Part shown: piece by piece, positions 4,541-14,652 of the stretch
How positions within the stretch are numbered: position 1 is the stretch's first letter
Layout of the letters: every line of letters begins with the position of its first letter
Source of the DNA: an uncultured Bacteroidales bacterium
GTDB lineage: Bacteria > Bacteroidota > Bacteroidia > Bacteroidales > UBA932
Assembly (NCBI GenBank): GCA_944326335.1
Contig: CALVDM010000003.1
Span: forward strand, 1 to 64,000
Direction of reading: 5' to 3'
DNA: 64,000 nt
Translations under genes and position numbers: made by a program
Notes under the pieces: model-generated
Seen by the model: the letters and a program-made list of their open reading frames with translations, nothing else
Databases searched by the model: none
What the model was told of the DNA's origin: nothing

Positions 4541-6931
4541 TCAGAACAGCAGGGCCACCCGATAGACTATGAACGCCATGACCCAGGCGAGGACTATGGT
4601 GTAGACCGCTGAAAATGCAGGCCATTTCCAGCCCCCGGTCTCGGTCATTATGGCCCCGAACGTCGCTATGCAAGGGAAGTAGAGGAGAACGAACACCAGA
4701 AAAGCCAATGCTGCGGCCGGTGTTATGCTGTTCTGGAGAGCCTGCTGGAGTTTTGTCTCCCCGGTCCCGGACTCCACATCCTCGTCAATGCTGTACATCA
4801 CGCCCATTGAACTCACCACAAGCTCCTTGGCTGCTATTCCCGAAATCACGCCGACCCCCATCTGCCAGTCGAATCCGAGCGGCTCGAGCACAGGTTCGAT
4901 GCTCTTGCCTATGTACCCCAGGAAGGAGTTCTCCTGCTGGGACACCTTGTCCTCGTACTTGTCGTGGTTCGGGAAATATCCGAGGAACCAGATGAATATG
5001 GAGCTTATCAGTATTATCCCGGATATCTTGTGCAGATACTGCTTCCCCTTCTCCCATGTGTGCCTGAGTATGGACTTCGTGGTCGGAATCCTGTATGGCG
5101 GCAGCTCCATCACGAAAGGGAGGTCGTCATCCTTGAAGAACCGGCTCATCACCTTCGCCGTGAGTATCGCCACGACGATGCCTGTCACATACAGCCCGAG
5201 AAGCACAATGCTGGCGTGGCCCGGGAAGAATGCCCCGACTATCAGTATATATACCGGCAGCCGTCCCGAGCAGGACATGAACGGGACTATGAGTGTGGTT
5301 ATCAGCCTGCTCTTGCGGCTTTCTATCGTCCTTGTGGCCATGATTGCCGGGACATTGCATCCGAATCCCATAATCATCGGTATGAAGGACTTCCCGTGCA
5401 GCCCCATCTTGTGCATCAGCCTGTCCATGATGAATGCCGCCCTCGCCATATAGCCTGAATCCTCGAGAAGCGATATGAAGAAGTAGAGCAGCACGATGTT
5501 CGGGAGGAACACCAGCACGCTCCCGACCCCACCGATGATGCCGTCTGTCATGAGGTCGCGCACCATCGCCATGTCGTCCGGGATTATGGATTCGACGAAA
5601 TCCCCGAATTTCGCGACTGTCCAGTCTATCCACTGCATGGGGTATTCCCCGAGCGTGAACGTGCCGAAGAACACTATGTACAGTATGAGGAAGAAGATTG
5701 GGAAAGCCAGCCACTTGTTTGTGATTATCGCGTCTATGCGGTCGGTCATGGAGCGGTGCTTCTTCTTCACCATCCCCGGCTTCCATGTCTCGGCCAGGGC
5801 GCCTTTCACGAACGCGTACTTCGCATCCACGACGGCCGATTCGGTGCTTGTGCCCATCAGGGATTCGAACCTCTTCTGCTCGTCGTATTTTATGGCTATT
5901 ATCTCGTCCTTGTTCGGCAGGGTGTCGATGACGGCCGCCGCCTCCTTGTCGTTCTCGAGGAGCTTTATGGCCAGATACCTCGTCGAATACTTGTACCTGA
6001 TGTCCTGGTTTTTCTGTATGGCCATCTTGACCCTGTCGATGGACTGCTCGAGTTCCTGCCCGTGGTTGATGTGGATGTGCCGCGCAATTTCAGGACTCGG
6101 GTTTTCGTAAAGTTCGATTACCTTGTCGAAAAGTCCGTCTATGCCTTCTCCGGTCTTGCTCACCGTAGGGACTATCGGCATCCCGAGAAGGTGCCCCAAT
6201 GTCTTGATGTCCAGTTCGTCGCCTTTTGCCCTTAGCTCGTCGAACATGTTCAGGGCCATCACCACCCTCAGGTTCATGTCTATTATCTGGGTGGTGAGAT
6301 ACAGGTTCCTTTCCAGGTTAGAGGCATCCACCACGTTCACCACTATGTCGGGAGTCTCCTCGACGAGATTCCTCCGGACATAGAGTTCCTCCGGGCTGAA
6401 TCCTGATATGGAATACGTGCCTGGGAGGTCCACTATCACGAACTTGTAGCCTCCGTATTCGAAGTTCCCCTCCTTTGCGTCCACCGTCACCCCGCTGTAG
6501 TTCCCCACATGTTCGTGGCTGCCGGACGCTATGTTGAAGAGGGAGGTCTTGCCGCAGTTCGGATTGCCCACGAGTGCCACCCTTATGACATGCCGGCGCT
6601 GCTCGGCAAGGTCTTTCATCCTCTGCGCCAATGCCTTTTCGTCATCCGCCTCATCTCCGGGAAGTATGCTCGGAGATGACGGCAGGCTCATGCTCTCCTT
6701 GGCTTCGGATTCGCTTATGACCTCTATCATTTCAGCCTCTTCCCGCCTCAGGGATATTTTGTAGCCTATTATCTCGTATTCGATGGGGTCCATCAGCGGA
6801 GCGTTCAATATGACCTTGACGACATTCCCTTTTATGAACCCGAGTTCGAGTATCCTTTTCCGGAAACTGCCGTGGCCGCTCACCCTGACCACGACACCAT
6901 GTTCCCCGGTCTTCAATTCGGACAATTTCAT
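4541..6931 (-). CDS. feoB: FeoAB fusion, ferrous iron transporter
   Basis: This 796-aa protein fuses a FeoA SH3-like domain (about 1-75) by a short acidic linker to FeoB. The GTPase shows G1 GNPNCGKTS (about 122-130), G3 DLPG (168-171) and G4 NMFD (228-231). The C-terminal half is the multi-helix Fe(II) permease with two Gate-type repeats. FeoA-FeoB fusion is common in Bacteroidota. The frame extends to 6973, but a promoter -7 box CAAAGATA lies at 6971-6978 on this strand, inside that extension. ATG 6931 (MKLSELKTGE) is therefore the better start. The gene is divergent from the RND efflux operon. Confidence 0.96.
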   Translation of the reverse strand: MKLSELKTGEHGVVVRVSGHGSFRKRILELGFIKGNVVKVILNAPLMDPIEYEIIGYKISLRREEAEMIEVISESEAKESMSLPSSPSILPGDEADDEKALAQRMKDLAEQRRHVIRVALVGNPNCGKTSLFNIASGSHEHVGNYSGVTVDAKEGNFEYGGYKFVIVDLPGTYSISGFSPEELYVRRNLVEETPDIVVNVVDASNLERNLYLTTQIIDMNLRVVMALNMFDELRAKGDELDIKTLGHLLGMPIVPTVSKTGEGIDGLFDKVIELYENPSPEIARHIHINHGQELEQSIDRVKMAIQKNQDIRYKYSTRYLAIKLLENDKEAAAVIDTLPNKDEIIAIKYDEQKRFESLMGTSTESAVVDAKYAFVKGALAETWKPGMVKKKHRSMTDRIDAIITNKWLAFPIFFLILYIVFFGTFTLGEYPMQWIDWTVAKFGDFVESIIPDDMAMVRDLMTDGIIGGVGSVLVFLPNIVLLYFFISLLEDSGYMARAAFIMDRLMHKMGLHGKSFIPMIMGFGCNVPAIMATRTIESRKSRLITTLIVPFMSCSGRLPVYILIVGAFFPGHASIVLLGLYVTGIVVAILTAKVMSRFFKDDDLPFVMELPPYRIPTTKSILRHTWEKGKQYLHKISGIILISSIFIWFLGYFPNHDKYEDKVSQQENSFLGYIGKSIEPVLEPLGFDWQMGVGVISGIAAKELVVSSMGVMYSIDEDVESGTGETKLQQALQNSITPAAALAFLVFVLLYFPCIATFGAIMTETGGWKWPAFSAVYTIVLAWVMAFIVYRVALLF

Positions 6932-6970
6932 AGTGACAATCGGTTGTTTGGGTTGGAAAAATTCCGTCGG

Positions 6971-6978
6971 CAAAGATA
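6971..6978 (-). promoter_or_regulatory. -7 box of the feoAB promoter
   Basis: CAAAGATA on the plus strand reads TATCTTTG on the minus strand, a full TAnnTTTG match about 40 bases before the chosen feoAB start. I see no clear -33 TTTG at the usual distance, so the call is moderate. Confidence 0.5.
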
Positions 6979-7027
6979 AGGAAAAAATAGAAGTTCTCTC
7001 TATCGCTATTAATCGGTATATTTTTTG

Positions 7028-7035
7028 TAAATTTG
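7028..7035 (+). promoter_or_regulatory. -7 box of the RND efflux operon promoter
   Basis: TAAATTTG matches TAnnTTTG and sits about 70 bases before the adaptor start. No good -33 TTTG is visible. It is divergent from the feoAB promoter 50 bp away, so the two transcripts share a compact control region. Confidence 0.5.
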
Positions 7036-7106
7036 CCCCGGCTCAATCTGTTTCACGGTATTGCGCTGTCCATGGAAAGAAGAAGAATTTAATACCCGGA
7101 CACGTT

Positions 7107-8309
7107 ATGAAAGGAAAGGAATTTCTGAAAGGCACTTATAACAGTATCGACAACAAATCCAAATACGTGGTGTTCAAAATCCGGAAATCCAGCTGGAAAT
7201 TCTGGGTTGTTCTCGGGGCCGTGCTTGTGGTCCTTGTGGCACTGATAATATGGCTGACAAGGCCGGAACCTCCTCAGGAGGATATCCCGATAGTGATGAC
7301 AGAGACAGTCTCCACCAGGGATGTCGAGCTGTACGGGGAATATCCGGGGACCATCAGGGCCCAGCAGTTCGTGGAGATAAGGGCAAGGGTGGAAGGCTAT
7401 CTCGAGAAGATGCTTTTCGAGGAAGGCACATACGTGAAGAAGGACCAGGTGCTGTTCATCATAGACCCGCGCCAGTATCAGGCCCAGGCCGACAGGGCCA
7501 AGGCCATGCTGGAGAGGAACAAGGCTCTTGCCCAGAAGGCGGAGAGAGACCTGAACAGAATCCGTCCTCTGTATGAGCAGAACGCCGCGAGCCAGCTTGA
7601 CCTCGACAATGCCATAGCCGCATTCGAGAGCGCGAAAGCCGACGTGCTCATGAGCGAGGCCGACCTCACCCAGGACTCGCTTGCGCTCAGCTACACCACT
7701 GTCTGCTCCCCGATAAGCGGCTACATAAGCGAGAGATACGTGGACATAGGCACGCTGGTGGGGCCGGGAGGACAGTCTCTGCTTGCCAATGTGGTGAAAA
7801 GCGATACGGTGGAGGTGGAGTTCAAGATGACCGACCTCGACTACCAGATAAGCAAGGCCCGCAACGTGAACATCGGACAGAAGGATTCCACGAGGACATG
7901 GGACCCTTACGTGACAATCACACTGGCCGACAAGTCCGTCTACAAGTACAGAGGCCTTGTGGACTTCGCGGACCCGCAGGTGGATTCCCGTTCCGGGACA
8001 TTCTCCGTGCGTGCCGAAATGCCTAATCCTGACCATGAACTTCTCCCGGGCCAGTTCACCAACGTCACCCTTCTCCTCGATGTCAGGGAAGATGCGGTGG
8101 TGGTCCCTACCAAGGCCATAATCACGGAAAAGAGCGGGGCCTACATTTTCGTCCTGAGAAACGACGGGATTGCCGAGAAGCGTTTCATCGAGCTCGGGCC
8201 GGAGACGGGGAACTACACTGTTGTGGAGAGGGGACTCCTCCCTGGAGAGCAGATAGTCGTCGAAGGCTATCACAAGCTGACACACGGCAAGAAGGCAAGG
8301 ACTGTTTAA
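7107..8309 (+). CDS. RND efflux periplasmic adaptor (AcrA/MexA family)
   Basis: This 400-aa membrane fusion protein starts at ATG 7107; the longer open frame upstream crosses the feoAB promoter region. After about 25 cytosolic residues it has one transmembrane anchor (about 27-49, WVVLGAVLVVLVALIIWL) where many AcrA homologues have a lipoprotein signal. The lipoyl half-motifs (VEIRARVEGYLEKMLFEEGTYVKKDQVLF and SPISGYISERYVDIGTLV) flank a helical hairpin at roughly 140-220, followed by the beta-barrel and membrane-proximal domains. It links the permease to the outer-membrane duct. It is followed after 17 bp by the permease-OMF fusion, so the two genes encode a full tripartite pump for hydrophobic or amphiphilic compounds. 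Confidence 0.94.
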   Translation: MKGKEFLKGTYNSIDNKSKYVVFKIRKSSWKFWVVLGAVLVVLVALIIWLTRPEPPQEDIPIVMTETVSTRDVELYGEYPGTIRAQQFVEIRARVEGYLEKMLFEEGTYVKKDQVLFIIDPRQYQAQADRAKAMLERNKALAQKAERDLNRIRPLYEQNAASQLDLDNAIAAFESAKADVLMSEADLTQDSLALSYTTVCSPISGYISERYVDIGTLVGPGGQSLLANVVKSDTVEVEFKMTDLDYQISKARNVNIGQKDSTRTWDPYVTITLADKSVYKYRGLVDFADPQVDSRSGTFSVRAEMPNPDHELLPGQFTNVTLLLDVREDAVVVPTKAIITEKSGAYIFVLRNDGIAEKRFIELGPETGNYTVVERGLLPGEQIVVEGYHKLTHGKKARTV

Positions 8310-8326: not shown

Positions 8327-11300
8327 ATGAAATCTGATTTTTTCATTGACAGGCCGGTTTTCTCGACTGTCATATCGGTCATAATAGTGCTCGTCGGCTT
8401 CATCGGGCTCACATTGCTCCCTGTCGACCAGTATCCGGACATCGTCCCGCCGGTGGTGAGGGTGACGGCTTCATATCCCGGCGCGAGTGCGCAGACGGTC
8501 GCCCAGGCCGTGGCGACTCCTATTGAACAGGAACTGAACGGGACCCCGGGCATGCTCTACATGCAGTCCACCAACACGAATTCCGGAAGTTTCACCGCCA
8601 ACATAACATTCGACATATCGAGCAACCCGGACCTTGCGGCAGTCGAGGTCCAGAACAGGGTGAAGCAGGCTGAGGCCCGTCTCCCTGCCGAGGTGGTGCA
8701 GAACGGCATATCCGTCGAGAAGGTGGCATCCAACAAGCTCGTGACGGTGACCCTGCTCACCGACGACCCCAAGTTCGACGAGATATATCTGAGCAACTAT
8801 GCCACGCTGAACGTCCTGGACATGCTCCGGCGAGTGCCGGGTGTCGGGCGGGTGTCCAATGTCGGCAGCCGCTACTATGCCATGCAGATATGGGTGCAGC
8901 CGGACAAGCTGGCAAGCCTCGGCCTCACGGTCAAGGACCTGCAGAACGCCCTCCAGGACCAGAACCGCGAATCAGCGGCGGGTGTCCTCGGCCAGCAGCC
9001 TATCGAGGATGTGGATATCACGATTCCTATCACGGCCACAGGCAGGCTCTCATCCGTCAGCCAGTTCGAGAACATCGTGATAAGGGCGGGACAGGACGGC
9101 TCGATAATACGCCTCAAGGACGTGGCGAGGGTGTCCCTTGAGGCACAGTCATACAATACCGAGAGCGGAATCAACGGTGGCAATGCCGCGGTGATGGATG
9201 TCTACATGCTTCCGGGGGCGAACGCCCTCGAGGTCGCCGAGAATGTGAAGAAGGAGATGGAGGAGATTTCCAAGTCCTTCCCTGAAGGCATCACGTACGA
9301 CATCCCGTTCGACATGACGACATACATCTCCGAGTCGATACACCATGTCTACAGGACTCTGTTCGAGGCTCTGCTGCTGGTGATACTCGTGGTGTTCCTC
9401 TCCCTGCAGAGCTGGAGGGCGACCCTCATACCGGCCATCGCGGTCCCGATATCCCTTGTCGGCACATTCGGAGTGATGCTCATCTTCGGCTTCTCGCTGA
9501 ACATGATGACCTTGCTCGGGCTCATCCTGGCAATCGGTATCGTGGTGGACGATGCGATAGTCGTGGTGGAGAATGTGGACAGGATTATGCGGGAGGAGCA
9601 TCTTTCGCCGTACGAGGCCACGAAGAAGGCCATGAGCGGAATCGGAGGCGCGCTTGTAGCCATGTCCCTCGTGCTCTGCGCCGTGTTCGTGCCTGTCAGC
9701 TTCCTCTCCGGAATCACGGGCCAGCTTTTCAGGCAGTTCACCATCACCATCGCAGTGTCGGTCATCATCTCCACAATCGTCGCACTCACCCTCAGCCCTG
9801 TGATGTGCTCGATTTTCCTGAAACCGCCGAAGCCTGACGAGAAGAAGAATTTCATATTCAGAAAGATAAACGAAGGTCTCGCCAAGGGCAACTCTTTCTA
9901 CGAGAGGGTGATAAGGGCGAGTCTCCGCAATGCTCCGAGGATGTTCGCGTTCTTCGGCATCACGCTCATAGGCATCTGGGTCATTTCGAGCCTTGTGCCG
10001 AGCAGCTTCATGCCGAAGGAGGACCAGGGCTATTTCACCGTGGAGCTCGAGCTTCCGGTAGGTGCCACCCTTGAAAGGACCCGTGTCGTCACGGAACGGG
10101 CCATGGACTTCCTCATGAGGCAGCCGGACATCGAGTATGTGCTGAACGTGACTGGAACCAGCCCGCGTGTGGGCAGCAACCAGTCCAACAGCCAGCTTAC
10201 CGTCATCATGAAACCGTGGAAGGAGAGGAAGGAGAGGAACATAGACAAGACCATGGAGATGATAAGGGATTCCCTGTCTCTCTATCCGGAAAGCAAGGTC
10301 TATCTCAGCACACCGGCGGTGATTCCGGGGCTCGGGACTTCCGGAGGTTTCTCGATGGTGCTCGAAGCCAGGGGCGATGCCACATACGAAGACCTGCAGA
10401 GGGCTGCCGACACGCTCATGTTCTATGCTTCGCAGCGGAAGGAGCTTACCGGGCTGTCCACGAATGTGCAGAGGGACATCCCGCAACTGTTCTTCGATGC
10501 GGACAGGGACAAGATACAGATGATAGGAGTGCCGCTTGCAGACGTGTTCTCCTCCCTGAAGGCCTTCACCGGCTCCATATACGTGAATGACTTCAACATG
10601 TTCAACCGCATCTACAGGGTCTATATCCAGGCCGATGCGCCTTACCGCGCCCACAAGGAGAACCTCAATCTGTTCTTCGTGAGGAGTTCCAACGGGACAA
10701 TGGTGCCTGTGAACGCCCTCGGCAACACATACTACACTACAGGCCCGGGCACGATAAACAGGTTCAACATGTACTACGCCGTGACTGTCAGCGGAGAGGC
10801 TGCGCACGGCTACAGCTCCGGCCAGGCCATGGACCTTCTGGAGCAGCTTGCAAGGGAGCACCTGCCGGAGAACATAGGAATCGAGTGGAGCGGCCTTTCC
10901 TACCAGGAAAAGGCTGAGGGCGGCCAGACAGGTCTTGTGCTGGGGCTCGCCCTGCTGTTCGTGTTCCTTTTCCTTGCCGCACAGTATGAAAGCTGGTCCA
11001 TCCCTGTGGCCGTGCTTCTGTCGCTGCCGATAGCGATAGCCGGTGCATATCTGGGAGTTTGGGTGCTCGGCTACGAAAGCAACGTGTATTTCCTGATAGG
11101 TCTCGTCATGCTTGTGGGTCTCGTGGCAAAGAATGCCATCCTGATTGTGGAGTTCGCCAAGGAGGAGGTGGAGAAGGGCAAGGGCCTTGTCGAGGCCACT
11201 GTCACTGCAGCCCATCTCAGGTTCAGACCTATTGTGATGACATCCCTCGCATTCATCCTCGGCATGCTCCCTCTGGTGTTCGCCACCGGACCGGGCTCGG

Positions 11301-12841
11301 CAAGCCGTCAGGATATCGGAACCGGCGTATTCTTCGGTATGATTATAGCCATAACCGTCGGTATCGTGTTCGTGCCGTTCTTCTTTGTACAGATTTACAA
11401 AATGCGGGAAAAAATGTCGAGACGCAAGAAAAACAACAGCGGCGCCGCAACTGTGATAGCGGCTCTGATAATTGCCGGGACTGTCGGCGTGTCCTGCTCT
11501 CCTGCCAGGCATTGTGCCGCCCCGGAGCTCGGGCTTCCGGAGAACTACACCGGTGAGACCGTCACCGATACGCTTACATGGGCGGATGTCGAGTGGTGGA
11601 AGATATATCCGGACACCACCCTGCACAACCTCATAAGTGATGCGCTGGAGTACAACAAGGACATGCTTGTGGCTGCGGAACGCCTGCGCGAGATGGAGTA
11701 CCGCTACAAGATACAGCGTTCGGAGCTCTGGCCGTCCATATCGGCGAGGGTGTACGGGGAGAATGAGTACACGAACTATTCGGGCAGGAACCCTGCGGAC
11801 GACCCTGTGGTGAGTGTGATAGGGAGATTCTCGTGGGAGATAGATTTGTGGGGACATCTGAGGTGGGCCACAAAGGAGACTCTTGCCGAGTATTTCGCAA
11901 GTGTCGAGGCGCAGCGTGCGCTAAGGATATCCCTGATAGCCGAAGTCGCGGACACCTATTTCGACCTTCAGGCCCTGGACAACGAGCTTCTGATTGTCCG
12001 GCGCACTTTGAAAACCCGGGATGAAGGGGTGCAGAAGGCCAGGCTCAGACTGGAAGGCGGACTGACATCGGACATACCATACCAGCAGGCTCTCGTGGAG
12101 CGGGCGACCACTGCTGCCCTTATCCCGGAGCTGGAGCGTGAGGTGGCCATGAAGGAAAGCGCGCTGGCATTCCTTACCGGCTCATATCCCAAGCATATCG
12201 AAAGGTCGAGGATTCCGTTGGAGCTTTCATACAGGGATGAGATACCGGTGGGCGTTCCGTCGCAGCTCCTGACGCGCCGCCCTGACCTGCGTCAGGCGGA
12301 GCAGGAGCTGCGTGCCGCGGAAGCGGCCGTGGGCGTTGCCCAGGCGGAACGCTTCCCTACATTCTCCATCTCGTTCAACGGAGGCACCGAGACCAACACC
12401 CTGGAAAACATCGTGAAGGCCCCGTACTACTACCTCCTCGGCAACCTCGCGGCACCGGTCTTCGAATTCGGAAAACGCAAGGCCAATTTCAAGGCGGCGA
12501 TATCCCGCTACAACCAGGCACGTCTGAATTATGAGAAAGACGTACTCCAGGCCTTCAAGGAGGTTTACGATGCAATCGTGAGCTACAATTCGGCCGTGGA
12601 GAACACAAGCCTGAAGTTCGACCTCCAGGAAGCCTCGAAGCAGTACGTCTCCCTCGCCAATCTCCAGTACATCAACGGAGCCATCAGCTACATGGATGTC
12701 CTCGACGCCCAGCGTTCCTATTTCAGCTCGCAGGTGGAGCTCAGCAACGCCATAATGAACGAGTACAAGGTTCTCGTGGATCTTTACAAGGCTCTCGGCG
12801 GGGGCTGGCAGAGTCAGAGCCCCCAGTCTGAGAGCATGTAG
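8327..12841 (+). CDS. RND efflux permease fused in frame to an outer-membrane factor
   Basis: One uninterrupted 1504-aa frame. Residues 1-1025 form a complete HAE-1/AcrB-type permease: TM1 after MKSDFFIDRPVFSTV, the TM4 proton-relay Asp pair in GIVVDDAIVVVENV, the TM10 Lys in GLVAKNAILIVEFA, and two large periplasmic loops. It ends in the usual basic tail (YKMREKMSRRKK). Where a stop is expected, the frame continues through a hydrophobic stretch and VGVSC (Cys 1057), a good lipoprotein signal, into a NodT/OprM-type outer-membrane factor (about 1057-1504, with RRPDLRQAEQELRAA and the C-terminal repeat). ATG 11402 or 11414 could start a separate 475-aa lipoprotein. The product may be a polyprotein cut by signal peptidase II, a fusion with internal initiation, or the result of a lost stop codon. 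The 3' end overlaps the convergent nuclease gene by 28 bp. Confidence 0.93.
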   Translation: MKSDFFIDRPVFSTVISVIIVLVGFIGLTLLPVDQYPDIVPPVVRVTASYPGASAQTVAQAVATPIEQELNGTPGMLYMQSTNTNSGSFTANITFDISSNPDLAAVEVQNRVKQAEARLPAEVVQNGISVEKVASNKLVTVTLLTDDPKFDEIYLSNYATLNVLDMLRRVPGVGRVSNVGSRYYAMQIWVQPDKLASLGLTVKDLQNALQDQNRESAAGVLGQQPIEDVDITIPITATGRLSSVSQFENIVIRAGQDGSIIRLKDVARVSLEAQSYNTESGINGGNAAVMDVYMLPGANALEVAENVKKEMEEISKSFPEGITYDIPFDMTTYISESIHHVYRTLFEALLLVILVVFLSLQSWRATLIPAIAVPISLVGTFGVMLIFGFSLNMMTLLGLILAIGIVVDDAIVVVENVDRIMREEHLSPYEATKKAMSGIGGALVAMSLVLCAVFVPVSFLSGITGQLFRQFTITIAVSVIISTIVALTLSPVMCSIFLKPPKPDEKKNFIFRKINEGLAKGNSFYERVIRASLRNAPRMFAFFGITLIGIWVISSLVPSSFMPKEDQGYFTVELELPVGATLERTRVVTERAMDFLMRQPDIEYVLNVTGTSPRVGSNQSNSQLTVIMKPWKERKERNIDKTMEMIRDSLSLYPESKVYLSTPAVIPGLGTSGGFSMVLEARGDATYEDLQRAADTLMFYASQRKELTGLSTNVQRDIPQLFFDADRDKIQMIGVPLADVFSSLKAFTGSIYVNDFNMFNRIYRVYIQADAPYRAHKENLNLFFVRSSNGTMVPVNALGNTYYTTGPGTINRFNMYYAVTVSGEAAHGYSSGQAMDLLEQLAREHLPENIGIEWSGLSYQEKAEGGQTGLVLGLALLFVFLFLAAQYESWSIPVAVLLSLPIAIAGAYLGVWVLGYESNVYFLIGLVMLVGLVAKNAILIVEFAKEEVEKGKGLVEATVTAAHLRFRPIVMTSLAFILGMLPLVFATGPGSASRQDIGTGVFFGMIIAITVGIVFVPFFFVQIYKMREKMSRRKKNNSGAATVIAALIIAGTVGVSCSPARHCAAPELGLPENYTGETVTDTLTWADVEWWKIYPDTTLHNLISDALEYNKDMLVAAERLREMEYRYKIQRSELWPSISARVYGENEYTNYSGRNPADDPVVSVIGRFSWEIDLWGHLRWATKETLAEYFASVEAQRALRISLIAEVADTYFDLQALDNELLIVRRTLKTRDEGVQKARLRLEGGLTSDIPYQQALVERATTAALIPELEREVAMKESALAFLTGSYPKHIERSRIPLELSYRDEIPVGVPSQLLTRRPDLRQAEQELRAAEAAVGVAQAERFPTFSISFNGGTETNTLENIVKAPYYYLLGNLAAPVFEFGKRKANFKAAISRYNQARLNYEKDVLQAFKEVYDAIVSYNSAVENTSLKFDLQEASKQYVSLANLQYINGAISYMDVLDAQRSYFSSQVELSNAIMNEYKVLVDLYKALGGGWQSQSPQSESM
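11414..12841 (+). other. Outer-membrane factor module within the RND fusion, possible internal start
   Basis: ATG 11414 begins a textbook lipoprotein signal: basic n-region (MSRRKKNNSG), hydrophobic core (AATVIAALIIAGTVG) and lipobox VGVSC with Cys at position 28. The upstream bases GGGAAAAA could act as a weak ribosome site. The module includes both outer-membrane efflux protein repeats and has the length of a normal stand-alone OMF (475 aa). The entry marks this functional unit inside the longer frame and does not claim a proven second gene. Confidence 0.6.
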
Positions 12842-14652
12842 CTTCCCGTCACTGCCTCCGGCACTTCAGGGAAGAAATTGAATGTGCCTCCGAGCAATAC
12901 TTCTATCTCGTCCACGCTGCGGGCGAATTCCGCAAGATTGCCGCCGGCTATTTCTCCGCTGTTCTGTATATCCTGAGGAAGCCAGAAGCCGATGGCCATC
13001 AGCTCGTCTGCCGTGCAGTCGCAGATGCGTTTGCCGGTATTCCCTTCCTTGGTTCTCAGGTAGAGTTTGTACTGTGCAGTCGGCACGTCACAGATTTTGG
13101 ACAGGCTTGACTGCGTGCTGCCGTTGCATGCGTCATAGACGTAGTAGCTGTCCTCCTCGTAATGGCATCCGGCAACGACATATATCGTGTCCGTGCATAT
13201 CCAGGTGTCCGACAGCAACGCTTCAAGCTGCCCGTGTATGTCCGGATAAAGGAATCTTTCCGGAGCTATGTTGGTAGGATAGAATGTCTGGATGTTCAGT
13301 TCCGTGTTGTGCCCGCCTCTGTCTGCGGAGCGGAGCAGATGGCCTCTGGTGACGTACGAGCCCTCGAGCGGACTCCAAAACTGGTAAGGGTCCGTCGCCC
13401 GTGAAGCCCCGTCCCACGGCCAGTCATCATAGTCTGAACCGTAGATTATGGACTGCTCCCAGTGGTCGAATTTAGGGTCCGGCCTCCACGGGTCAGGGTC
13501 GGTCCTGCCGAATCCGCCTTCAGTGTAGCATTTGTGATGCGGGTAGGCCACCCATGCCGGATTGCGCTTTTCCGTGTCGTAGCATGCGGAATAGTTGCGG
13601 ACACGCTTCCCTGTCAAGACAGTTTCGGACCAGTGTGTCACGAACTTGTATGCATCGTCCGGGATTATCGTAGCCGGCATTTCCGGCCATGGCACATTGT
13701 TGTCCTTTTCGGTGTACGCCACGGTCTGTGTGGCGGTCCGGGTAGTCTCTACGAGCTTGAAATCATCCACTTTCGTGGTCTTTTTCCCTGACCAGAGAGT
13801 GAAGTTTATTCCGGAAGGCGTTCCTCCCGTTATCTCGAACACGGCAGAGGCCAGAACCCATGTGCCGCTCCCTTTCACTGCCGTGAAGTCAAGTTCCGTC
13901 TCCGCTCCGGAACCGCCGTCGAAGCTGACATACAGCTTCATGCTTGTCCCGCTGACGAAAGACTCCCCGCTTGGAGGCGTGGCGCCGAACGAGAACTCGA
14001 GCCTTGTCTGCCCCGGCGAGAGGGAAATTCCGCTTATGAGGATGGACCTGTCATCATAGTTGAAGTTCATGGCATTTCCGCCTGAGGCTCCGTCGTAGCC
14101 CATCGACACGTATCTGTCCCTGACGCTGATGCCCTGCCCGCTGTAGCTTACATTGGCTGCCCCTGGTCCTGTGGCGTTGATATATTCGTTCCACTGGTCG
14201 AGGTAATATGCCCCGCCGCCGGCACTTGTCCGGTCAAGATTGTCGCTGTATATGAGGGTTTCCTCCACAACCGGAGGTTCCGGCCCGGTGCCGGCCTCGC
14301 GTGTGACCTTCACTGTCCTCGACACTGTCTCGTCTTCCGATGACCTCGGGAAGGTGGTGACAGTGATTGTTCCGGTCTGCCCTTCCCCGATATCTGTCAC
14401 CTTCACCTCCGTATTGCCCGCGTCGCCGTCCTTCGGCTCGAATTTCAATGTGCTGTTGTCGCTTTCGGCATGCCAGGACACCGAAGAGTTGACGATGAAT
14501 ATGTTTTTGTCGGGATTGTCCGCGTCGAATTCCAATGTCTCTTTTGAAACTGCGAGAGAAGCTTTTTCATAGCCGTCCGGGGTTGCCGAGTCGCATGCCG
14601 CGAAGGCCAGGATGACTGCAGCAAACGCTGCGGATTTCTGCCTTATGGTCAT
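12814..14652 (-). CDS. Lipoprotein DNA/RNA non-specific endonuclease with BACON-like domain
   Basis: This 612-aa protein has a lipoprotein signal (lipobox LAFAAC, Cys 20), a BACON-like beta domain (about 30-115), a middle beta-sandwich region (about 130-310) and a C-terminal NUC1-family beta-beta-alpha metal endonuclease (about 330-600). The active-site motif is TRGHLLRSADR (435-445) with the general base His 438; N453 and N461 in NIQTFYPTNIAPE are the metal-ligand candidates. The first motif residue is Thr where the family most often has Asp (DRGH). Such nucleases usually act outside the cell or at the surface and may serve nucleotide scavenging. The gene follows the AraC regulator by 78 bp on the same strand. 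Confidence 0.87.
   Translation of the reverse strand: MTIRQKSAAFAAVILAFAACDSATPDGYEKASLAVSKETLEFDADNPDKNIFIVNSSVSWHAESDNSTLKFEPKDGDAGNTEVKVTDIGEGQTGTITVTTFPRSSEDETVSRTVKVTREAGTGPEPPVVEETLIYSDNLDRTSAGGGAYYLDQWNEYINATGPGAANVSYSGQGISVRDRYVSMGYDGASGGNAMNFNYDDRSILISGISLSPGQTRLEFSFGATPPSGESFVSGTSMKLYVSFDGGSGAETELDFTAVKGSGTWVLASAVFEITGGTPSGINFTLWSGKKTTKVDDFKLVETTRTATQTVAYTEKDNNVPWPEMPATIIPDDAYKFVTHWSETVLTGKRVRNYSACYDTEKRNPAWVAYPHHKCYTEGGFGRTDPDPWRPDPKFDHWEQSIIYGSDYDDWPWDGASRATDPYQFWSPLEGSYVTRGHLLRSADRGGHNTELNIQTFYPTNIAPERFLYPDIHGQLEALLSDTWICTDTIYVVAGCHYEEDSYYVYDACNGSTQSSLSKICDVPTAQYKLYLRTKEGNTGKRICDCTADELMAIGFWLPQDIQNSGEIAGGNLAEFARSVDEIEVLLGGTFNFFPEVPEAVTGSYMLSDWGL

Follow-up and report, generated by a model that had tools for sequence, protein, structure and literature searches.

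Fused HAE-1 permease and outer-membrane channel genes of Bacteroidales carry a conserved internal lipoprotein signal: a candidate efflux-pump polyprotein

How could an outer-membrane channel reach its destination when it is encoded as the C-terminal half of an inner-membrane permease? The question is raised by a 64,000-nucleotide stretch of DNA from an uncultured Bacteroidales bacterium (hereafter the window), which contains a compact efflux operon on the + strand: an adaptor gene and, after a gap of 17 nt, an open reading frame (ORF) of 1504 codons. The parts of the locus are as follows (window positions).

7028..7035, + strand: TAAATTTG, candidate promoter, picked by eye, 71 nt before the adaptor ATG
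7107..8309, + strand: RND periplasmic adaptor (MFP) gene, separate from the fused ORF (TIGR01730, 287.4 bits against a cut-off of 94.9)
8327..12841, + strand: fused permease and outer-membrane factor ORF (ATG start, 1504 aa plus stop, without internal stop)
8327..11431, + strand: residues 1-1035, the HAE-1 RND permease moiety together with its tail (NF000282 and TIGR00915 above cut-off)
9548..9553, + strand: codons of Asp408-Asp409, presumed proton relay (residues present)
11129..11131, + strand: codon of Lys935, presumed proton relay (residue present)
11495..12838, + strand: OprM/NodT-type outer-membrane factor moiety, residues 1057-1504 (TIGR01845, OEP)

The adaptor start at 7107 was chosen by eye inside a longer ORF (6783-8309). 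The upstream TAAATTTG matches what we take to be the Bacteroidota -7 promoter motif, TAnnTTTG; a promoter and terminator scan gave no more matches than were obtained in shuffles. At its 3′ end the fused ORF overlaps tail-to-tail, by 28 bases (12814-12841), with an opposite-strand ORF (12814-14652) of 612 aa for which no NCBIfam match was obtained. Elsewhere in the window, an opposite-strand FeoB gene (4541-6973; 615 bits) also gave a weak FeoA match, below cut-off, at residues 36-86, and is possibly a FeoA-FeoB fusion.

The sequence-only reading of this DNA had described a complete AcrB-type permease running without a stop into a complete NodT/OprM-type channel, and both halves of that description held. 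The N-terminal moiety scored 1279.3 bits against NF000282 (cut-off 1250) and 1151.2 bits against TIGR00915 (cut-off 940.35), with an ACR_tran match spanning residues 3-1023 of the fused ORF, and its solved relatives include CmeB, MexB and AcrB. Hydropathy analysis gave the stretches expected for 12 AcrB-type helices, a single stretch covering two of them (we assume the AcrB assignment of stretches to helices), followed by one extra segment at residues 1037-1061. Asp408, Asp409 and Lys935, which by analogy with AcrB we presume to form the proton relay, are all present. By curated score and relay residues the permease is of the HAE-1 class, drug export being putative. The C-terminal moiety scored 307.2 bits against TIGR01845 (outer_NodT; cut-off 210.05) and was matched by OEP in two stretches. 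OprM was its best solved relative both in sequence and in fold: an AF2 model of residues 841-1504 (mean pLDDT 73.6) had OprM 3d5k as its top PDB match (TMt 0.84), indicating that the channel moiety, as modelled, has a TolC-like fold.

A continuous frame of this kind could be an artefact of faulty sequencing or assembly, or a mutation confined to a single metagenome-assembled genome, and the window's assembly is indeed in 61 contigs and 89.67% complete. However, a search for long homologues spanning the junction, proposed in the sequence-only reading as a check, showed that, of 103 distinct permease orthologues whose junction could be read, 49 are fused in the same way and 54 are unfused. The fused ones include records titled Parabacteroides goldsteinii, P. 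gordonii and Paraprevotella xylaniphila, all named strains. The fused relatives refute an artefact, to which we attach practically no credence.

The 103 orthologues comprise the best 80 of at least 572 confirmed related loci together with loci from genome searches (8 of 111 rows were duplicates and were collapsed), and the sample is biased toward in-frame cases because the full-length protein was used for ranking. Five unfused loci (L121, L123, L125, L127 and L128) failed the TM12 pattern and lie outside this set, but were added to the tree described below. A fairer estimate was obtained with a permease-only query of 393 genomes of the order: 6 of the 41 rows at E = 0 (63-100% identity) were fused (L001, L119, L046, which has the same permease as L120, L146/L175, L172 and L173; frames read from the sequence), and the remaining 35 had open frames of 1027-1076 aa. 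Among 63 further matches listed for this query, at 40-46% identity, none had an open frame longer than 1101 aa. Within 36 genomes of the same genus (58-98% complete), only G029 has an orthologue, which is fused and 78% identical; for the other 35, either nothing was listed above 42% identity or nothing at all. The window's own genome also encodes a second HAE-type pump (G000:C37:2250-6769) with a permease of 38% identity; there, permease and channel are matched in different frames, providing an internal control.

The distribution of the fusion was mapped onto a tree containing 108 orthologues plus two outgroups. The fused state requires 8 changes on both the FastTree tree and the IQ-TREE quick tree, and at least 7 of these are forced by starred branches, so a single rare local event is rejected. 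Fused sequences fall into the clade of the window (24 rows, set from the FastTree tree, including records titled Cryptobacteroides or uncultured Bacteroidales), a Tannerellaceae/Parabacteroides group (11 rows), a Paraprevotella group (4 rows) and five small groups of 1-3 rows each. The view that the arrangement is unusual for an HAE-1 pump therefore had to be abandoned. One fused copy, from a contig titled as a Clostridium sp. metagenome-assembled genome (L090), groups with a Muribaculaceae row, and the title of the contig is probably wrong.

If the fusion is real and recurrent, what is conserved where the two moieties meet? The junction reads MREKMSRRKKNNSGAATVIAALIIAGTVGVSC, and its elements are as follows.

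11387..11431, + strand: residues 1021-1035 (VQIYKMREKMSRRKK), C-terminal tail of the permease, which doubles as basic n-region of the internal signal (corresponds to the complete tail of the unfused relative L110)
11432..11494, + strand: residues 1036-1056, hydrophobic and uncharged, core of the internal signal peptide and predicted as TM13 (hydropathy)
11495..11497, + strand: lipobox Cys1057, predicted Lgt/LspA site (sole invariant junction residue)

The hydrophobic core and the lipobox cysteine noticed earlier are thus both present in the sequence, Cys1057 beginning at nt 11495 within the lipobox GVSC, whose Gly at -3 counts against a lipoprotein signal. A basic n-region, an uncharged core and a lipobox cysteine are the features of a signal peptidase II substrate; here they occupy residues 1021-1057 of the ORF, not the N-terminus of the primary product as in ordinary lipoproteins. 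An uncharged stretch ending in a lipobox-like cysteine was found in all 49 fused loci (for L064 its position was shifted by eye, four residues downstream); 47 of the 49 have Ser at -1. Net charge over the 20 residues preceding the core has a median of +7 across the 49 loci (minimum 0), the weakest being L047 (+1) and L049 (0). Moreover, when 25 of the 49 fusions (50-89% identity to the window's protein) were aligned, starting at window residue 841, no position between F1020 and P1071 other than Cys1057 was invariant. The AF2 model places a helix (1040-1053) at the signal core; its confidence there is low, so the model says little about cleavage.

Length variation of the linker between TM12 and the cysteine points in the same direction. 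At least 14 changes were counted within the window's clade (24 rows) and 7 within the Tannerellaceae clade (11 rows), all of them whole codons. A row is called fused only if it is in frame, and the weight therefore rests on the absence of any unfused row inside the 24-row clade. That an unfused row was missed is possible but not likely, because the same search retained out-of-frame unfused rows at only 76-78% identity. In the fused relative L047, 81 residues separate the TM12 motif from the lipobox cysteine; much of this stretch is a hydrophilic insert rich in Gly, Asp and Arg, and the frame is still kept.

These observations support the proposal, made in the sequence-only reading, of a polyprotein with an internal lipoprotein signal. 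We consider it likely, with a probability of roughly three in four, that in this HAE-1 family the channel is mainly released by Lgt and LspA at Cys1057 following export via the internal signal, the topology and the cleavage being predicted from sequence. The ORF would be translated whole as a single polyprotein; the twelve permease helices would insert, leaving the C-terminal tail in the cytosol; and the basic tail together with the hydrophobic core would serve as an internal signal peptide of type II. This thirteenth helix (N-in, C-out) would bring the channel moiety into the periplasm, where Cys1057 would receive its lipid from Lgt, and cleavage by signal peptidase II (LspA) would follow on its N-terminal side. 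Both enzyme families were detected above cut-off in the genome, indicating that lipoprotein processing enzymes are present. The expected products are a permease extended by one C-terminal helix and, freed from it, an OprM-like lipoprotein, which would move to the outer membrane and assemble with the separately encoded adaptor. Since pumps of this kind contain permease and channel in equal number (3:3, with six copies of the adaptor), the fusion may have the benefit of delivering permease and channel at 1:1 while the adaptor is kept separate.

Could the 1504-residue protein instead work uncut, as a tether that joins the inner and outer membranes? The maintenance of one continuous frame across many species would fit such a protein. 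However, the channel barrel must sit across the periplasm from the signal core, and the stretch that links the core to the channel domain is only some tens of residues long; furthermore, the invariant lipobox cysteine would be without purpose in a tether. A further argument comes from Parabacteroides distasonis (L221), added to the tree later, in which permease and channel are two ORFs overlapping by 4 bases. Its sequence is 93% identical to the fused L146 and is nested within the fused Tannerellaceae, raising the change count to 9, which suggests that P. distasonis reverted from the fusion to two overlapping genes. This relative shows that the fusion is dispensable, and both layouts therefore presumably give a working pair; interchange of layouts within one genus is most easily understood if both end as the same two proteins. 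Taken together, we regard an uncut tether as highly improbable. The P. distasonis record (NZ_OY725823.1) came from a PLSDB search for mobile elements, which gave 1492 records (1489 at <60% identity), 20 of them listed and two examined. It is filed there as a 237-kb plasmid, and as it contains metA, fabG and similar genes it may be a misfiled piece of chromosome.

A more serious alternative to release of the channel from the polyprotein is internal initiation at Met1026 (11402) or Met1030 (11414), both within the tail VQIYKMREKMSRRKK, which would make the channel lipoprotein separately and leave the fused product as a by-product or second source. The origin of these methionines was examined by comparison with the nearest unfused row, L110, which adjoins the window's clade on the tree. 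The L110 permease ends in the tail VKIYNLKNKLERKRK followed by a stop, 15 residues like the 15-residue VQIYKMREKMSRRKK of the window, and the ATG of its channel gene overlaps this stop (ATGA), where the window has AAAAAC. The fused signal therefore looks chimeric, with a basic n-region apparently derived from the permease tail and a core and lipobox from the channel. Comparing the bases around the junction with relatives, as had been recommended, located in L110 a stop/start overlap that the window does not have, and both candidate start codons fell in the stretch that matches permease tail. Consistent with this, the tail position of Met1030 (position 9) is mostly hydrophobic irrespective of fusion (M/F/L/I in 24 of 24 rows of the window's clade; L/F/M/I/V in 46 of 54 unfused rows); 10 of the 24 clade rows have a residue other than Met there.

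Start codons were then counted in all fused loci, the counts covering ATG, GTG and TTG past TM12, with starts inside TM12 and rarer codons falling outside them. In 4 of the 49 (L064, L088, L097 and L101), no such codon leaving a basic n-region follows the TM12 motif PFFF; from the third codon after PFFF on, these codons are absent in 7 of 49, and 16 of 49 have no such ATG. By comparison, an ATG with a basic n-region was found in 52 of 53 scored unfused loci (the remaining one of the 54, L137, missed the lipobox rule, though its MESC end was recognised by eye; L102 was misread by the start-codon rule). Unless they use a rarer codon or a start inside TM12, the four fused loci without a common start must derive their channel from the full-length fusion. 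Internal initiation is rejected as the general mechanism. The window itself, unlike these four, does have start codons past TM12.

Some observations nevertheless favour internal initiation within the window's clade. The codons before both methionines are A-rich, and an ATG followed by a basic stretch is kept in 22 of the 24 rows. The lysine codons of the tail are biased toward AAA (AAA:AAG 81:47, compared with 238:618 in the permease body), possibly a retained initiation context, although the rows are related and a P value for this bias is therefore not independent evidence. Unfused relatives show the same trend (201:79 in the tail, 1075:829 in the body), whereas the other 25 fused rows are without AAA enrichment (64:62 and 383:413). 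Predicted folding of the junction mRNA gave a weak signal in both fused groups analysed, being slightly less structured than synonymous resampling in the window's clade (mean z 0.53) and in a second group (mean z 0.45); eight other segments of the same genes in the window's clade ranged from -0.72 to +0.36. The suggestion that the channel might rely on starts at 11402/11414 thus keeps the A-rich tail of this clade on its side and loses ground to the alignment with the L110 permease tail and the four start-less loci. Overall, we judge it unlikely that internal initiation makes the channel; within the window's clade it is possible as a remnant or a minor second source, not as the main route. Frameshifting at the A-rich stretch is a further, speculative alternative.

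Other RND lineages were surveyed as well. The sequence-only reading had pointed to TolC-type fusions in CusA-like metal pumps of Bacteroidota, correctly: a CusA-model search of 61 genomes of the phylum gave frames of 1440-1506 aa in 30 of the 83 rows listed (L178, L182, L185-L188, L190, L192 and L197-L218), and all 30, picked by length, were single ORFs of more than 1400 aa with an internal hydrophobic segment. A Pfam check of L182 and L188 found both moieties. Like the family studied here, these CusA/CzcA-TolC proteins join an RND permease to a TolC-type channel after TM12 via an extra hydrophobic segment in one frame; unlike it, the permease is that of a metal pump and the internal signal is of the signal peptidase I (SPI) type, with Gln at +1 and without a lipobox. 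By a strict rule, Gln directly follows a plausible SPI site in 26 of the 30; in L186, L197 and L204 the Gln site was seen by eye and has Lys at -2; the site of L215 (ALT↓Q) is questionable.

A second group of fusions was found among HAE-type permeases. Full-length queries had tabulated open frames of 1464-1638 aa for 16 HAE rows, of which 12 were really 1020-1076 aa and four (L166-L169; family f142, same phylum) were fused. Open-frame length from full-length queries was accordingly dropped as a count of fusions, whereas the frame lengths from the permease-only query agree with the junctions read from the sequence. L166-L169 resemble the family studied here in having an HAE-type permease, 33-34% identical, fused to a TolC-type channel (both moieties in a Pfam check of L166 and L169), and differ in their internal site, which is of the SPI type, ending S↓Q or A↓Q after an internal hydrophobic segment (three of four by rule, L167 by eye). 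As they belong to another subfamily, their fusion probably arose independently. Gln at +1 is the signature of Bacteroidetes SPI, and on average across species 71% of substrates are predicted to have Gln exposed by SPI cleavage (PMC5837995). Retention of this signature inside fused proteins argues that internal SPI-type sites are cut. The same sites lend some substance to the idea that another protease, such as signal peptidase I, cuts the HAE-1 polyprotein in place of LspA; however, the invariant feature in this family is the lipobox cysteine, and we hold such a substitution to be very unlikely.

How does the arrangement compare with known systems? MexAB-OprM, AcrAB-TolC and CmeABC comprise a permease, an adaptor and a channel of the same families, as three separate proteins of which the channel has its own N-terminal signal. 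The unfused orthologues with a 4-base ATGA overlap (L110; P. distasonis WP_008780328/WP_010184517) have the same families in the same order and keep the lipobox, but as two ORFs, the state from or to which the fusions change. Another parallel is fbcH of Bradyrhizobium, a cytochrome b/c1 precursor that is likewise a bacterial polyprotein resolved at an internal signal, in that case by signal peptidase I and into two inner-membrane subunits. Fusions of RND permease and TolC in metal pumps and polyproteins cut by signal peptidase are thus already known. No description of RND-channel polyproteins or of their cleavage was found among the matches listed in a search of open-licence literature by title and the start of the abstract, and the passages searched in PMC8277102 and PMC10434189 do not describe them.

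Considering the lineages together, it is likely that Bacteroidota repeatedly build two-membrane efflux pumps from one precursor and that they do so in three or more RND lineages (the HAE-1 family studied here, the second HAE group and CusA): the basic permease tail would serve as the n-region of the channel's internal signal, and a housekeeping signal peptidase (II or I) would resolve the polyprotein and supply its parts at 1:1. If this is true, efflux pump assembly in this common gut phylum would include a step carried out by a housekeeping signal peptidase; an uncut channel would remain attached to the permease. Signal peptide tools that consider only the N-terminus would overlook exported outer-membrane proteins of Bacteroidota. 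A natural comparison exists within Parabacteroides, between the fused genes of P. goldsteinii and P. gordonii and the unfused genes of P. distasonis. Finally, processing of this kind would be a simple route to a fixed 1:1 stoichiometry and would explain the recurrence of fused RND-TolC genes.
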